Positions 9,509 to 62,869 of a stretch of DNA of 64,000 bases are shown piece by piece (position 1 is the first letter of the stretch; each line of letters starts with the position of its first letter). The DNA lies in the NCBI GenBank assembly GCA_037576195.1, contig CM075103.1:10974001-11038000 (forward strand). Direction: 5' to 3'. A program made the position numbers and the translations under genes. The stretch is from Phytoseiulus persimilis (lineage: Eukaryota > Arthropoda > Arachnida > Mesostigmata > Phytoseiidae). The notes under the pieces are model-generated. The model had not been told where the DNA came from. It saw nothing but the letters and a program-made list of their open reading frames with translations, and did no database searches.

Positions 9509-11455
9509 GCCTACGATTCCGCTCGCGGATGTTTCTCGTATCCGACAGCTGCTCCCATTCAAGCTCTAGGACGCTATCGTGAACTTGGTCTCACAATACA
9601 TACGGGCACATTGAGAAGTTTTCCGCTGCGACGGAGGTGATACAACAGAGCTGTTCGCTAGGCTATTTGATGGCAGCCGTGGCTGTGAAGTACGTCCTTG
9701 GTCAGCTTGTCAATCGCAGGGATGATATCGCAACCAAGCGCTCGCCTCGGAGAATCCCACAGATCAGCCGGACTTAGCCGAGCGAATCCACTGGAAAACC
9801 TCCTTGAATCTATCAGGCTCCCCGGATCGAGACAGCGCAGGCCCACCGCAAGAATTGCAACGCTCTGCTTCAACTTTCTCCCCCTGCGGACGGCGAACCG
9901 TGCCGAGCGGAATCTTTCAACTAAATCGCTTTCCGCGGTAAGCCTTGTTTTTCTTGTTGCTGGAAATCTCCCGAGCCCGATATTGGCACCATGATGAGAG
10001 CACATTAAGCTCACCAAGCCGCGAGTGCGGGGCTCATCGCTAAAGTAATTTGTTTCACTCAATCGGGGCAGGACGGAGGAGGGGAAGGAGAGAAATCTGG
10101 TTCCATGACAGGTCGTCTGCAACTGGAAGATATCGCGAAAGACACAGGCTCCGGATGTTGAGCGTTTCGGTAATCTCGTCAAGGGAATGTACAGTGCTCG
10201 CTCTGGCCGTATGGAAAAGCTTTGTCGCATCAGAGGGTGAGCTCAAGGTCAGCGCACGAGCAGCAGCCCGAGGAGCACCACAAGTCCTTTACATCGTTAT
10301 TCTCCGGCTTCCGCAGCGAACGACCGGGAAATGCTGTTGCCCTGAAACTCAGATCGAGAAGCTCCAGCCCGGGGCTCCGATGTCAACAACTCCCTTGCCC
10401 GTCAAGCCACCTCGTTTTTTGGGTGGAGGAGGAATATTATTCCAAACTTCATTTCGTTCGCAATGATTTGTTTTACTCTGGAGAGGAATAACAGGTCCAG
10501 CGGCTGCTGTTTCGATGGCCGTGCAAGGAAGTTTTCCCCAAGGTAGGAACGCACCGAGATGAATAATTCTCAATCTGAGATCCGCCCCTCCATGAGAATA
10601 TTCAGATTCTTCCTGAAGAAATGCAGTCCACGGCACGCGGCGGAGACGGACAGCCGCAATGCACTGATCCACCTTCGAAAACTTCCTCAATTGTCCTTTT
10701 GTCGAAGGAGAGCCATCTCGGGGAGTGGTTGCGGCTTTGTGTGCTTCTAGCGAATATCGATAGAACCGCTAAATGCTCCCCTCCCGGAGAACTTTCGGAG
10801 CAGCCTAATTGGGCGGATATCCTTGAAAAAAGTCTCTCGGCCTTCGAGGCAGTCGGAGTCCTCAGCCGCAGAAGATTCTCGGCGGAGAGGGAGGACCGGT
10901 TAAAAAACGGAGCTGGTTGTGGATGCAATCTCCTCTCCTGGCTTTATTGAATATTTTGGCCTCAACAAAACAGGGAAAACTTGGATAATCGTGTCAAAAC
11001 TCGCTCAAACATCTCTGTACAGGAAAAGGGCAAGAAGATAAACATCAACGTTTGTTTGGTACAAGGAAACCTGTTTTTGGAGCTGCGCCAAACCTACGCT
11101 GCGAACAGTGAGTCGTCGAACCAAGAGCTGGTTTGATCTCGGGTCGGAGCTGGAGGTGAATTCTGGACGACTTCCTCGAGTCGAGGTTCTTCGTCTTCGG
11201 GTGCGGATTTCGACTTCATCACTCCACTCGCATCCGTTGGGACACTCGTTCGACGAGCATCACTCCACACGGGAACGTATCTCCTCTCGTTTGGGAGCGA
11301 CCAGCTCGTAGTGTAGCGGAGCGGTCTTGGGGGAAGGATCTTGACCGATCGCGTGGAATCGAATTAACATTTCATTGACGTTTTTATGAGCTGAACGATG
11401 AGCGAGCCGCGGGACGCCTTTCCGCAACCCGCGCGCCCGCACTCCGATGTCTGCT

Positions 11456-13619
11456 CTAACTTCTAATTGCTGGCCGAGTGCTCAGTGGGCTTTGTGGGTT
11501 GAAGGGAACATCGGAACTGAGCTTGCGAGAGACGCACATTCGCTCGAAGTCTGCCGCTTCCTTATCGAGGGTTTCGATGAGGGCCCTCGCAGTCTTTTTT
11601 TCCGCCTTAACCAGCCGCGTCTGTAGCCGGCTGTTCTCCTTCCGCAACTGGTCGATGGTGAACTCCTGCTTATTCAACTGAAACCGAAGAAGAAGACTAG
11701 GCCCGCTGTTCCCCTTCCCGCTCAACTTCGAACTGGCGCTCTAGAAGCAGAACACTTCGGGGTTCGGGACGAGTTGGTCTGCCACCAGCGGAACCGATGA
11801 CTCCGAACAAAACGGAGCACTTTTCACGCGATCTACCCTCCAAAGTGGAGGGAAGGCAGGAAGTGTCCCGACATGATCACGCGGAGGAAAAACGAGCCGG
11901 AGAGGGAATCCGGAAGGTACAGGCCACGCAGCGCAAATACCGCTTTCGCGAAAGGCGCCTCGAGGCGTGCGGAGCACCATTCGTGCAGCGGGGAGCATGC
12001 GGGAATTCTCGTCTCGAAGGGAGGAGAGGCGGAAATCGAGAATGTCCGGGACGCTCACCTGTTCATGTAGTCTCAATACTTCTTGTTGCAGTCTCGCCAT
12101 GTAGGACATTTGCACTTGATACGCCTCAAGACTTTTCTCCTTCCTGGAACGGGATTTTTTTCCTCAGCCCATTTCCTGATTCGGGGAAACTTTGGAGTTC
12201 CCATCGACACGGAAGAGCTCATGCAGTCATGTCTCTCCGGAATATTACCCGCCCCCCCGTTACTCCACCTCCCCAGACTGGTAACGTCTTCAGGCACAGC
12301 CGGCTCTCGAGGCGATGGGAAAACTTCATTCCCTCACAGAAACCGGCTTCTCTCCACTTTTCCGGTGAACATGATGTGTGCATGAATCGCACCCTCGGTT
12401 CAGACTCGCGAACGCCAGAGGAGATTATCATGACCTCGTGTGCCCATCCGGCGGTTCTCACCATCTTTGAGCCTCCTCCTGCATGGCTTTGATGGAATTG
12501 TGCTGGGCCATCTGCCCCGTGGCCTGCTGCCCGTTGGCCTGCGTGTTGGCGCAGTTCATGTTCAAGTTCTGCGTGTTGTGGTACGGACCGCTCTCGAACG
12601 GCGGCAGGAAACACATGAGCACCTCGCCGGTTCTGACGTTTCCGTCCTCCTCGTGGAATCGACTGTTCAGGATGATGTCCGGCGTGAAGGAATTCTTTTC
12701 GAAAAAAGCCCTCTGTTTTGTTGATGAAACGCAATTGCTATGTTGGTTATGAGCGGGCTTGGCAGCACCGTTGCCAGCGGCTTCAGCGCACTGTTCTCCG
12801 CAGCGGATGTGCATTGTCATGGCGTCATATGGGCCTACCAGCGAGGGGCTCTTTATTCTCTGTGAACGTACGAGAAGACATTTATTTCCTCCTCCCTGCG
12901 ATGAGAGTTCGCGCGCTGCGAGTTCAGCTGAGGGCAATCCGGCGCGGAGCTCGGTGATTCGCATAACCGACGTCCCGGAAGCCGCATCGCCTCAAGTGGT
13001 ATTGCTCGCGACAAAGTTTTCGCGCCATTCCTTCCGCGGGCTCGGTTACACCTACCTTCACCATGAAGCTGCCGATGCCGTACCGTCGGAACTTCTTCCT
13101 CACAACGATGTTCGAGAGTACCACCACTTTTGCGCCTGAAGGCCTGGAATTTGCATAAAATCAAACCGAGGTCGACAGACACGAGATGGAAGGTGGCGGT
13201 GCGGGAACGGCTAGAGGAGGAGACGGAGGACCAAAATAGAAAGCGGGCCGTGAACCGGCTCAGCCTTAGAGACGAAGCTGGAGGAAACTGTTTGGACCAT
13301 GAACGATTGGTCTGAGCTGACCGGCTCAAAAAAGTTCGGGGGAACAGGAGGGGAGGGGGGAGGGGGTTGGCTCTGTCCTTCTTCGACGGGACATCTATTT
13401 TCACTGACATCTGAAGTGAGCGACTCGAGGTACGTACCTGTATTCTTTACAGAACGACGCGCAGGCGACGAGACGTGACTCCACGCCGACCTGGCGCTCT
13501 CGTTTTCTGTGCTGGACCGCTCTGAGATATGCCTCGAGGCTTTTAGTGAACATTTGACCGCAGTCGTTGGTTTCGAACTCGTCGTCCGCAATGCTGAAAT
13601 AAGAAATCGGTGGTTCCAT
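11456..13619 (-). CDS. GNAT acetyltransferase-like protein with C-terminal coiled coil (five exons)
   Basis: The exons, in transcript order, are 13619-13438, 13143-13056, 12859-12462, 12143-12059 and 11677-11456. All have GT/AG borders and their phases (2,0,2,0) agree, giving 324 residues and a stop. Residues about 60-150 look like a GNAT acyl-CoA N-acyltransferase core. A beta strand VVVLSNIVV (67-75) leads into RRYGIG (80-85), which fits the acetyl-CoA pyrophosphate-binding pattern R-x-x-G-x-G. Strand TMHIR (105-109) and the AFFEKNSF segment (141-148) match the later GNAT strand and helix. Residues 181-210 are rich in Asn and Gln. From about 211 to 290 the chain is a long charged helix with leucine heptads (MSYMARLQQEVLRLHEQ), so a coiled coil is likely. 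The tail is Ser/Pro-rich. About 24 residues (117-140) interrupt the GNAT fold. The substrate is unknown, and an activity is inferred from the motif only. The ATG at 13619 is the first in frame; an earlier exon is possible. Confidence 0.65.
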
Positions 13620-35499: not shown

Positions 35500-36565
35500 T
35501 CATAGTTCGTTGTTCTCCCATCGCCTTAGGATATCCATCGTCCTTCTCAGGTCCCTCGCTGTTGAATCAGGGTGAAGTCCTAATCGGTGCGCGAATTCCG
35601 TCTGGGAGTACTTTCCTTCCTCGCATTCCAGAATGACATGTTTGTCGGTTTCCGGGGCTCCACATCGAGCGCATTTCATGTCTATGGAAGGGTCTCGGGA
35701 GTTTTGTCGGCTCTTGGTGTTGAGCATTCCTGCTCTGGCTAGCGCCAATAACCGACTGCCCCGCGAGTTATCGTATAGTTCCCTCTCGAGACCTCGAGTC
35801 TCTTTGAACTGTCGATAAACAGTCAATGTGGATCTGTATTCCATATTCCGTCTCCATATGGAGTCCAACTTATCCCGCACTCTCGTTTTGAGTTATTTGC
35901 GGAACATATTCCACATTGGTCTGTTTTGCGTATTTCTGGTCAGGCTGAGATCTTCAAGGTCATACTGGGTTCTCAAACTTCTGAGTCTCTCCATTGCCTT
36001 CACTTTTGTGTTTGTTATCTCAGTTGCTGTGAGTATCATTCTGGGCCATCTGGATGGATCCATTTGTTTCACTCTCTCGAAATACATGATTTTGCTGATG
36101 GTCTCCATGGCATCGAAGGAGGACCGCCCTAGTTCTCCCTCAATAAACTCCTTTGATACGGTGGAGTGTGGTATGCCCATGGCCCACCTGCCCGCGTCCC
36201 TTTGTCTGATTTCAATGAGGTTTCTCAGCCTTCTAGGCATGGTGATCACTCCATTGCAGCAGGTCAGTTGTGGTATTGCGGTGGCTTTCCAAAGAATTTT
36301 GGATACTTCAAACCTGTTGAAGCTCCAAAGAGTCCTCGCATTGAGTCTTTTGATCGCCGTGTTGGCCTTGTCCGTCAGCTTATTCCAGTGTTGGGATAAG
36401 TAATCTTTTTCGGCCGAAATTTCGATCCCCAAGTACTTATAGGATTCAACCATAGGTATTGACTTCCCTTGTATCTGTAGGTCTCCATTTGGATTATGAT
36501 CTGATCCAAATAAGACATAATTCTGGTGATAACGATTTTGGCTCTTGACACAGGCCGCTCACTCC
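35500..36565 (-). pseudogene. LINE ORF2 3' half: reverse transcriptase thumb to C-terminal CCHC motif
   Basis: Read on the minus strand, the frame runs from about 36565 (after a stop) through QNRYHQNYVLFGSDHNPNGD, the thumb motif ESYKYLGIEIS (about 36450), and a long helical region, to a TAA at 35893-35895. It then continues in the same frame from 35892 to the terminal stop at 35500. The C-terminal part carries C-A-R-C-G...H-V-I-L-E-C (about 35650), a C-x2-C-x7-H-x4-C finger typical of I/Jockey-type LINE ORF2 ends. Only that single internal stop (CAA to TAA would explain it) breaks about 340 codons, so the copy is 5'-truncated but fairly young. The sequence upstream of 36565 is unrelated. Fragments at 46.6-46.9 and 57.7-58.1 kb share the same C-terminal domain. 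Confidence 0.8.
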
Positions 36566-37379
36566 GGACGAGATATCTCTTGCAGGCCGCGGCAATCTGG
36601 CTGTGAATTCTCGCCACGATTTTCGTCAGTCGGCGACCGGAGGGGAAGTCCTCACCCACCTCCAATCCCGTGGCCTGAAGGTGAACCCGATGGAGACTTC
36701 GAGCCGTAATCCCCAGATTTGACCCCGGCGTGTCCCTGTACGCCTTTCAAAAAGGAAAGATTCGACTCAGAGAGCGCAGTCAGGGCAAAGTTCCTGCAGG
36801 CGAGATAGTCACAGCGCAGCTGTTTATAACACATCATCTTAGCAACTCGCTGGGGTATAAAACAAGTGAGGACGTGGAACGAATTCCAAGCGATCAAAAG
36901 CAGAAGGCTCGAGCTCTAAACCGACGGCGAAAACACACGGCCAGATCCGGATGCCATATCGACAAAGGAGACTCTTTCTTGATCGCTTCCTTCCAAGCGC
37001 TGTCCTCTTGAGGAGCAATTCACGAATAGTAGGTCGAATAATGGTTCTGAACGTCTCCGGAATTACGGTGTGCGGACCACTGATCTCTTCCAGAATCCTT
37101 GAATCTGTTAAGAATCTTTCATTTCGCTCAACAGCGTTCAACAAAGCCAATGCGGAACTCGTCACCATGTGAGTCCTCCTCTACGAATGCATGCGTCTGT
37201 GGGAGGACTTATCTGGAGGCCTGAATTCGGAGAGCTCTACAATCGCATTCGCCGCGACAAGCGAACATCAGCGTTGCCCGAAGCAAGACTCGGAAGCCTT
37301 AAAGAATTTTGCGGCAAAGCGGTATACCGGATTCCCTCTGATACGAGTGCAAAACTTCCATTGTTTCAACCCTCCGCAG

Positions 37380-50411: not shown

Positions 50412-51017
50412 TCAGATTTCCGGTGTGGGATCGCCGGACGGGGAGCTTGAGCTCAGCTCGGGCTGATTCGAGGATGCCGGAAGTGGGGCGTCGGACGCTA
50501 TCGAGGAGTTGAAGAGTTCGGTAGTTTCTGAGGACTCTGAAGAGAACGACTCACTGGACGTGGAATCGTTGTTGGCGTTATCGTCGTTGAACGAGGAATC
50601 GGCGGCCGAGTCGTCACAAATGCAGTTTTCAAAGTCTCCAACGACAGTCTCGGTGTTTCCCGCCCGACGCAGCCTCTTTTCCCTGGACAGCCTAGAAATC
50701 AAGTCGCCTTTGATACTTCGAACGGTTTCGCAACTGATATCGGGAGTCCTGTCCTCGGAAGATTCAGAACTCGAGGAGGACGATGAGGAAGACGACGACG
50801 ACGACGACTCATCTCTGGAATTCCTGCGGTATTCGCGAAGCACTTTACAGAGGTTTCCGTTGATTTTCTTCGCGGATTTCTTGCTGAGGTCATTGCTCTC
50901 GATCGCTTGCCGGAGACACACCGCGCTCTTCCCGGACACGCAATCCCTCTTATTTTTCTTGGCCTCACCGAGCGCAACCAGAAGCACTAAACAAGTCACA
51001 GCCAGAGTAACCTTCAT
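50412..51017 (-). CDS. Secreted serine-rich protein
   Basis: The single-exon frame encodes 201 residues. Residues 1-19 are a classic signal peptide (Lys2, hydrophobic core LVLLVAL, then GEA as a likely cleavage site), so the product is exported. The mature part opens with a basic, Cys-containing segment (C26, C34, C57), followed by a run of 14 serines encoded largely by TCG/TCC/TCT codons and an acidic stretch. Next comes a second Cys-containing part with SREKRLRR, which contains the furin-type pattern R-x-K-R. The tail is acidic and Ser/Asn/Pro-rich. Six cysteines remain after signal removal, enough for three disulfides. A TATA box lies 41 bp upstream of the ATG and an AATAAA 79 bp downstream of the stop. 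I recognise no family. Serine-rich low-complexity secreted proteins occur in salivary, silk and cuticle contexts, but nothing here picks one. Confidence 0.75.
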   Translation of the reverse strand: MKVTLAVTCLVLLVALGEAKKNKRDCVSGKSAVCLRQAIESNDLSKKSAKKINGNLCKVLREYRRNSRDESSSSSSSSSSSSSSESSEDRTPDISCETVRSIKGDLISRLSREKRLRRAGNTETVVGDFENCICDDSAADSSFNDDNANNDSTSSESFSSESSETTELFNSSIASDAPLPASSNQPELSSSSPSGDPTPEI

Positions 51018-51057
51018 GCTGACAACTCATCGAAGCCGAAGCAATCTGAACATTCGC

Positions 51058-53803: not shown

Positions 53804-55087
53804 TTAGGTAAGTCAAAAAGTTCGTCGGCTTTTTGAAGCCGCATTTTTGAAATTCCCGCGCTCTACAGCAGTGCCGCCTGGGAGTGCGGCTGGGTGTTTA
53901 CACTGAAGATTAGACTCTCGGCTGCGCGCGGATACACCGCTCCCAACTTTATCGTATACTTTGTGGAATCAGCAGCTATTTGAAATGGAGGAAAAAAAAG
54001 AGCATTTTCGACACATCATGTTGTTCTCCTACCGCGAAGGCTTAAGTGCAGCGCAGACAACGCGGAAGATATGCGCAGTTTACGGCGAAAACGCACTACA
54101 CAAATCCACGGTCGAAAAGCGATTCGCCCGTTTCGAAGCTGGAAACTTCAATCTTGAAGATGAGCCGAGATCAGGACGACCTCAAGTTGTGAAGACGGAC
54201 GAAATCATTAGCTTGGTTACTTCGAATCCAGCCTTGACCATGAAAGAAATTGAAGATGTGACGGGAGTCTCTCACGGAACCGTTTGGAACCGCCTGCATC
54301 AAGCAGGTTTCTCAAGCAAGCGGAATATCTGGCTACCTCACGACCTCACTGATAGGCAGCTTGAACGACGCGTTGATACCTGTCACCTACTACTCCGGAA
54401 GAACCACAAGGAATCGTTTCTGAGGAGATTGATAACCGGCGATGAAAAATGGATACTCTACAGAAACGCAACACAGAGAAGAAGCTGGGTCCGCAAAGGT
54501 TCTCAGGCAGCAGCTATCCCCAGACCAGAACTTCATCAAAAAAAGGTCATGCTGAGCTGCTGGTGGGACTGCAAAGGCGTAGTGTTTTTTGAGCTGCTCC
54601 CGATGGATCAGACTATCAACTCCGAAGTCTACTGCAGACAACTTGAAGATTTGAAGACCGCAGTTGCATCCAAGCGCCCAGGTTTGGCAAACAGGTGGGG
54701 CGAGGTTTTTCAACATGATAATGCGAGACCACACAAAAGTTTGGCTTCCCGGCAGAAATTGGCGGAGTTTGATTGGGATGTGCTACCGCACCCAGCCTAT
54801 AGTCCCGACCTCGCACCATCAGATTATCACTTGTTCAGGTCTCTGCAGAACTCTCTTGACGGCGCCACATTTGAATCTTTGGAGGATATTAAAAATCACC
54901 TCCATCGATATTTTGATAATAAAGAGAAAAAGTTCTGGGAGAATGGAATCATGGATTTACCAGAGCGATGGGCGAAGGTCATCGAACAAAACGGTCAATA
55001 TATAATTGAATAAAAATATTGTTGTCTGCAGAGATTTGGCTCCTCAAAATCGGGTAGAAAAGCCGACGAACTTTTTGACTTACCTAA
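53804..55087 (+). mobile_element. Complete mariner transposon (1,284 bp)
   Basis: Both ends carry the same 30-bp terminal inverted repeat (53804-53833 and 55058-55087, beginning TTAGGTAAGTCAAAAAGTTC), identical at every position. It is flanked by the TA dinucleotide duplication (53802-53803 and 55088-55089) expected for Tc1/mariner insertion. The length is the family's usual 1.3 kb. Perfect ends plus an unbroken transposase point to a recent insertion that may still be mobile. It does not interrupt any gene I can see. Confidence 0.97.
53961..55013 (+). CDS. Mariner transposase
   Basis: A 350-residue intact transposase, the usual mariner length, that cuts and pastes its own element at TA sites in the nucleus. 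Residues about 15-115 form the paired helix-turn-helix DNA-binding region for the terminal repeats. WLPHDLT (124-130) is the family linker motif (W-V-P-H-E-L form). The DDE/D catalytic triad is complete: D161 in TGDEKW, D253 in QHDNARPH and D288 in YSPDLAPSDYHLF. The last two Asp are separated by 34 residues, the DD34D signature of mariner proper (Tc1 has DD34E). There are no frameshifts or stops. Two in-frame starts are possible, at 53961 and 53985; the second leaves out only eight residues before the conserved region and may be the true one. Confidence 0.96.
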   Translation: MWNQQLFEMEEKKEHFRHIMLFSYREGLSAAQTTRKICAVYGENALHKSTVEKRFARFEAGNFNLEDEPRSGRPQVVKTDEIISLVTSNPALTMKEIEDVTGVSHGTVWNRLHQAGFSSKRNIWLPHDLTDRQLERRVDTCHLLLRKNHKESFLRRLITGDEKWILYRNATQRRSWVRKGSQAAAIPRPELHQKKVMLSCWWDCKGVVFFELLPMDQTINSEVYCRQLEDLKTAVASKRPGLANRWGEVFQHDNARPHKSLASRQKLAEFDWDVLPHPAYSPDLAPSDYHLFRSLQNSLDGATFESLEDIKNHLHRYFDNKEKKFWENGIMDLPERWAKVIEQNGQYIIE

Positions 55088-62200: not shown

Positions 62201-62869
62201 TTGTAGGTCCCGGTAAAAAAAACGCTCCACTGGCAAAGTGTCCTTTCTGAGCCCACTCCCGATTGTCCGACTCTGCGTTCCAGGGAATCGACTGGGATAT
62301 CGGGACACCAGACGATCTGGATGACGAAGTTGCAGAAATCATGAGTACCACCCAAGGTTCGCATCCGAAAGTGTCGTTTTCGTTGATATTCGGGACTTCT
62401 CCTTAACCATACGCTCGTCATCGTCTGTGAAAAATATTTTCCAACCATTCCAGAGCCTGATTTTTCCAAACTAGTGGCTGATGAGTCGTTGACTGACACT
62501 TCAACACCGACCCGGCAGCAGGAGGAAGCCGACGATCGGTATCAAACCTGGTCGGAGAAAATAAAACCGATTCTACAGAGGTTGGACGAACGGCCGAAGT
62601 TCAATCTTCGAGACACAGCGAAGACGATCATACGGGACATGAAAGTGGGTGAGCAGGTTTCCATGAAGGAAGTCCTGCGCCACAGAAAACCCGAACAGGT
62701 TTCGAGAAACTTCGTCGCGCTCCTGCAACTGTGCAATACGCGTAACGTCGAGATCGGAGACGACAGCGTTCTGTTGTTGAGTGATGGCTTCAAGCTCGGA
62801 GCTGAAGTTCCGACAGACGGCTATTCAGATCAGCTCATGGCTTCGACGTCCGGTAACCCGTCCTCGTAG
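59248..62869 (+). CDS. NCAPH2: Condensin-2 complex subunit H2 (kleisin), nine exons
   Basis: The kleisin of condensin II bridges the SMC2/SMC4 heads and binds the HEAT subunits, acting on mitotic chromosomes in the nucleus. Exons: 59248-59283 (tentative), 59782-59991, 60379-60536, 60642-60928, 61051-61246, 61569-61737, 61963-62145, 62284-62356 and 62454-62869. All phases agree, giving about 575 residues (human about 605). The N-terminal domain is clear: IKPLRDLTQNFQVKLD, then FHAGLILQ joined to SSREVYSRKVDYLEMLLDAL across an intron, as in other animals. LPPILPMLLMP and GRKGDFRVN follow. The middle is acidic, then ETPKNAPFVPMLDP and a basic KKK/KRKRK part that may be a nuclear signal. The last exon is the kleisin C-terminal winged helix (WSEKIKPILQRLDERPKFNL to LQLCNTRNVEIGDD). 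A short conserved central segment between exons 6 and 7 was not seen. The first exon rests on phase and donor only. Confidence 0.9.
60026..60285. mobile_element. hAT-like MITE (260 bp) in an NCAPH2 intron
   Basis: The left end, CAGGGACGTACCCAG, and the inverted right end, CAGTGGCGTACCCAG, match at 13 of 15 positions. The flanking 8-mers AACACTGT (60018-60025) and ATCACTGT (60286-60293) match at 7 of 8. The inside has a T9 run near the left end, a T/G run near the right, a small GATGAT/ATCATC inverted repeat, and no coding frame. It fills most of the 387-bp intron between the second and third exons without touching the splice sites. Confidence 0.8.

Follow-up and report, generated by a model that had tools for sequence, protein, structure and literature searches.

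The described systems closest to the gene studied here are the GNAT superfamily (PF00583, Acetyltransf_1; PF13508, Acetyltransf_7), NAA50 (N-alpha-acetyltransferase 50), the GCN5/PCAF lysine acetyltransferases and the leucine-zipper-type parallel coiled coils. GCN5 is an active enzyme. On beta-4, GCN5 has a catalytic Glu and NAA50 a catalytic Tyr, and the beta-5 His of NAA50 presumably has a functional role. To our knowledge, NAA50 carries no C-terminal coiled coil. Parallel dimers typically have Leu at heptad position d and, at position a, beta-branched residues together with a single Asn. The gene lies on the minus strand of a 64-kb window, by which the whole analysed stretch of 64,000 nucleotides is meant. 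The gene itself looks ordinary, and the domain order that it appears to encode is uncommon: a dimer-type coiled coil follows a diverged GNAT-like domain. The likeness to the GNAT superfamily consists of a beta-4 strand, an R-x-x-G-x-G loop and, in most variants of exon 3, a motif B-like end. On the other hand, the N-terminal part is short, motif B is without N-x-x-A and has FF for FY and SF for GF, and beta-5 is uncertain. The similarity to NAA50, of which a copy was found in this genome (locus L016), is seen in motif A (FRRYGIGSFMVKRI versus YRRLGIGSVMLKHV). However, the catalytic beta-4 Tyr of NAA50 is replaced by Val. With GCN5/PCAF, which locus L008 resembles, the protein shares a Phe where most GNATs carry the alpha-4 Tyr, but the beta-4 catalytic Glu is absent and no bromodomain was detected in the chain. 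The tail shares Leu at d and a single Asn at a with the leucine zippers. Unlike them, it has no basic DNA-binding region ahead of the coil, and its coil matches in Pfam and PDB are not significant.

The predicted gene runs from an ATG at 13619 to the last base of a stop codon at 11456. Its exons are 13619-13438, 13143-13056, a third exon ending at 12462, 12143-12059 and 11677-11456 including the stop. GT and AG were found at all these exon ends and a single frame is kept throughout. The order along the predicted chain is GNAT-like domain, Asn/Gln-rich linker and coiled coil. The features and the candidates considered are as follows.

13438 to 13619, minus strand: exon 1, with the start codon and the N-terminal GNAT-like part (residues 1-60 and two bases)
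13056 to 13143, minus strand: exon 2, with the beta-4 strand and motif A, VVVLSNIVVRKKFRRYGIGSFMVK
12713 to 12859, minus strand: candidate left extension of exon 3, an open frame that would contribute a beta-5-like strand, DAMTMHI
12792 to 12859, minus strand: alternative to the left extension, a separate exon followed by a short intron (12791-12738)
12462 to 12712, minus strand: exon 3 core, with RAFFEKNSF... (motif B-like), GEVLMCFLPPF (beta-7-like), the Asn/Gln-rich linker and the start of the helix
12059 to 12143, minus strand: exon 4, the first part of the coiled coil, with fitting phases
11456 to 11677, minus strand: exon 5, the remaining coiled coil, a Ser/Pro-rich tail and the stop codon
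11094 to 11325, minus strand: candidate alternative last exon, an acidic open stretch ending in SSWFDDSLFAA and a stop codon

The donors of exons 1, 2 and 4 are ACAG/GTACGT, GAAG/GTAGGT and ACAG/GTGAGC (the slash marks the exon end), and the acceptors of exons 2, 4 and 5 are TTCCAG, GTTCCAG and GGTTTCAG. The acceptor matrix was built from 13 sites, three of them from the studied gene, which makes it partly circular that exons 2, 4 and 5 score high. The intron boundaries of NAA50, NAA10 and a chaperonin gene were inspected by eye. When the window was scanned for codon bias, with a training set of 16 GNAT pieces from this genome that makes the scan lean toward GNAT-like composition, exons 3, 2, 5 and 1 lay within the first, third, sixth and seventh best stretches. 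The top stretch (12470-12688) is inside the exon 3 core, and the stretches of exons 2 and 1 extend beyond their donors. The bias of exon 1 was 0.122 bits per codon, which is equalled by 0.3% of the stop-free stretches in the window. Upstream of its ATG the frame stays open to 13721, and there could still be an additional 5′ exon. The bias of exon 4 was weak (null fraction 0.048 in the first codon model and 0.763 in the synonymous-codon model). In exon 5, positions 11540-11677 were coding-like, with none of 1500 null stretches as high, and the last 27 codons (11459-11539) did not look coding in the first codon model (null fraction 0.896) and were ordinary in the synonymous-codon model (0.259). 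The candidate last exon could be reached from an internal donor of exon 5 (GAAT/GTGCGT at 11537) through an acceptor at 11326 in a fitting phase, and an AATAAA lies downstream of it at 10948. It was not adopted, since its acceptor is ordinary (29% of the AG sites in the window score as high) and its coding bias equals the background.

The start of exon 3 was analysed separately. Among the AG sites from 12990 to 12710, seven of 19 match the phase of exon 2 and keep the frame open (12949, 12895, 12859, 12850, 12790, 12757 and 12712). Therefore, agreement of the splice phases, which the preliminary description had used as an argument against an artefact of joining neighbours, is a weak argument. 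Its 290-residue chain is reproduced by the start at 12757. The matrix scores of 5.3 for 12895, 2.0 for 12859 and 1.9 for 12712 were not decisive. The segment 12859-12764 was coding-like (null fraction 0.03) and 12763-12716 was not (0.87), both halves of this split having been picked post hoc on data already seen. An exon from 12859 followed by a 54-base intron (12791-12738) would agree with this pattern. Introns as short as this occur, as the NAA50 gene of this genome has one of 55 bases by eye. By hand count, 26 residues separate DAMTMHI from the GIG loop, compared with 27 in NAA50. Of the five-exon, single-chain model proposed earlier, the ATG at 13619, RRYGIG in 13143-13056, the stop at 11456 and the one-frame GT/AG exon ends were retained, but seven acceptors compete for the left end of exon 3.

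On exons 1 and 2 alone, PF00583 scored 21.2 bits (cut-off 20.7) and PF13508 scored 16.9 bits (cut-off 27). The acetyl-CoA loop, R/Q-x-x-G-x-G/A, follows the beta-4 strand (VVVLSNIVVRKKFRRYGIG), and the motif RRYGIG noticed earlier was confirmed in exon 13143-13056. The full chains of 324, 290 and 275 residues gave 20.0, 19.2 and 21.0 bits with PF00583, and several truncated variants gave 21.0-21.4 bits, above the cut-off. The full-length 324- and 290-residue chains were under the curated cut-offs of both families, and PF13508 stayed below its own in every variant, with a maximum of 25.1 bits. In six-frame searches of the genome at E ≤ 0.01 with PF00583 (21 rows) and PF13508 (14 rows), the studied locus was absent, as expected for a diverged, intron-cut domain. 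A sequence search of the PDB returned one match at E 0.87 for the GNAT part of the 324-residue model and none for that of the 290-residue model. These marginal scores, the outcome of the PDB search and NCBIfam matches driven by the coil alone would agree with a chance match in motif A, the protein then being another coiled-coil protein. We regard this as highly improbable, because no GNAT family appeared at E ≤ 10 in any of seven controls, in which the 182-residue GNAT part was shuffled (six) or reversed (one), and because the residues matched by PF00583 are the same as those matched by PF13508, FR47 and Acetyltransf_CG. The GNAT assignment of the chain thus appears real but marginal. That exons 1 and 2 encode a GNAT half domain is predicted with good confidence.

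For the contribution of exon 3, PF13508 was compared across six variants.

Start 12859 (324 residues): 20.8 bits, ending at position 53
Start 12757 (290 residues): 25.1 bits, to position 83
Start 12712 (275 residues): 20.0 bits, ending at position 54
Start 12859 with the 54-base intron: 23.1 bits, to position 83
Start 12859 with an 81-base intron: 20.9 bits, to position 83
Shortened HNC variant: 21.6 bits, to position 83

In four of the six variants the match extends to position 83 of 84 (20.9-25.1 bits), in the other two it ends at 53-54, and the later GNAT elements claimed before are therefore found in most but not all of them. When exon 3 was shuffled, the match never passed position 56 in ten trials (16.1-20.2 bits); this control was made with the 12757 variant alone, itself the best chosen from six. 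With PF00583, the ten shuffles scored 19.7-23.9 bits and five of them reached the cut-off, and the real variants scored 19.2-21.4 bits, no higher than the shuffled ones. Therefore, PF00583 lends exon 3 no support. A read-through of exon 2 as the end of the GNAT domain was rejected, PF13508 giving only 18.6 bits to position 61. Overall, exon 3 probably completes the same GNAT domain.

The same evidence bears on whether two adjacent genes were joined, namely a short GNAT gene of exons 1 and 2 and a gene for the linker and coiled coil starting from an ATG near 12820. The frame of exon 2 continues, coding-like, to 12960, no acceptor of exon 3 is prominent, and 12829-12758 is coding-like with in-frame ATGs (MTMHI). 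However, the read-through does not extend the GNAT match, which four of the six joined variants do and the shuffles do not, and FFEKNSF and GEVLMCFLPPF resemble GNAT alpha-4 and beta-7. Two genes are therefore considered improbable. Since the linker lies in exon 3 together with the motif B-like part and the first helical residues, the fusion rests on one exon and not on phase alone. A GNAT-like domain and a coiled coil are likely to belong to one gene.

The Asn/Gln-rich linker between the GNAT-like part and the helix is encoded in exon 3, as had been described. With a COILS-type matrix and constants reconstructed for this analysis, the probability was ≥ 0.8 at residues 238-301 of the 324-residue model, equal to 204-267 of the 290-residue model. 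The heptad-rich helix of the preliminary description is thus predicted to be a coiled coil above chance, with 3 of 500 shuffles of residues 206-312 reaching its score, but it covers about 64 residues and not 80. The score peaked at 1.65 in the tail and at 0.95 in the GNAT part. The a positions are M238, V245, L252, I259, N266, L273 and T280, and the d positions are L241, L248, Q255, L262, L269, A276 and A283. From this heptad core, dimerisation driven by the coil is a fair inference. Five coil matches to the tail in the PDB (E 0.68-4) were not significant. In NCBIfam, TraP matched the coil at 24 bits against a cut-off of 135; this match and others far below their cut-offs were set aside as composition.

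Relatives were searched for in the assembly of 180,977,233 bases in 127 contigs. At least five matches to the protein were obtained, all those listed being within this locus, and they gave no second copy of the gene in this genome of 181 Mb. The loci include positions on four contigs of 28-55 Mb. Of 21 GNAT loci compared with the protein, the NAA50-like L016 matched best, with an E of 0.64 that is not significant overall. Two other GNAT loci, L010 and L011 (contig C4, 25.95 and 27.23 Mb), have an identical 91-residue stretch on opposite strands 1.3 Mb apart, which reflects either a recent duplication or an assembly effect. A tblastn search of plasmids with a 46-residue piece of exon 3 gave no match, and in prokaryotic genome contigs none of 21 pattern matches was confirmed. 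In the portions of the literature available to our search, no metazoan protein with a GNAT domain and a coiled coil was found.

The catalytic positions were compared in a hand alignment anchored on RRYGIG. The beta-4 residue aligned with the catalytic residue of GCN5 and NAA50 is Val, and the alpha-4 Tyr is replaced by Phe (FF for FY). This Tyr is retained by 12 of the 13 other GNAT genes compared in the same genome, the 13 being the following exon of L016 and 12 distinct rows that reach motif B. Left out of this count were L011, which duplicates L010, and L018, L019, L020, L021, L022, L024 and L025, which are short of motif B. The sole exception is the GCN5-like L008, which also has Phe. As GCN5 is active, Phe by itself does not establish that activity was lost. 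In motif B, GF is replaced by SF and N-x-x-A is not recognisable. The catalytic residues of GCN5 and NAA50 thus appear mostly not to be kept. Val at beta-4, Phe at alpha-4 and the changes in motif B could mean that catalysis was lost and that the GNAT-like domain serves as a scaffold on a coiled-coil dimer, either by its fold alone or by binding acetyl-CoA. This is unlikely, though less so than the joining of two genes. Against it stand the shared Phe of L008, the intact acetyl-CoA loop RRYGIG and, should 12859-12792 be coding, a His (in MHI) at the place of the NAA50 beta-5 His (26 against 27 residues from GIG). A narrower form, in which a catalysis-lacking GNAT on a leucine-zipper dimer serves as an acetyl-CoA-responsive scaffold and not an enzyme, in a lineage-specific animal gene, is quite doubtful.

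We tentatively propose that the locus is a diverged GNAT-superfamily gene of about 290-325 residues whose product is an enzymatic dimer, consisting of an acetyl-CoA-binding fold, a linker and a homodimer helix and acting in protein acetylation. Motif A, the linker and the heptads are read directly in the predicted protein, as is a second half resembling motif B in most variants of exon 3. From these, exons 1-3 would form an acetyl-CoA-binding GNAT-like fold, and the flexible linker would connect it to the leucine-zipper-like helix. The helix may assemble as a parallel homodimer, and would thereby pair two GNAT domains or dock them on a partner. Transfer of acetyl groups by the GNAT-like domain onto a protein substrate is our guess, for the activity as well as for the substrate. 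If orthologues keep both parts, this would be an acetyltransferase-like gene with a coiled coil of its own to dimerise or dock the GNAT domain, and the question would arise whether such a fold can still function when the usual catalytic residues are missing. Without orthologues, it would be a diverged protein of a large superfamily that has gained an oligomerisation element, and domain gains of this kind are common.

Other features were noticed in the window. On the minus strand, 35896-36683 holds stretches that we take to resemble the end of a non-LTR retrotransposon reverse transcriptase, and a Pfam search of 35896-36558 gave no match. An open frame at 50415-51026 (minus strand) starts like a signal peptide and has a sub-threshold Pfam match only. 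On the plus strand, 62387-62866 contains an exon for the C-terminal domain of the condensin II subunit CAP-H2 (PF16858, 62 bits), and 53907-55010 is an open frame of 368 residues that matches a mariner-type transposase (PF01359, 103.5 bits; HTH_48, 71.7 bits).
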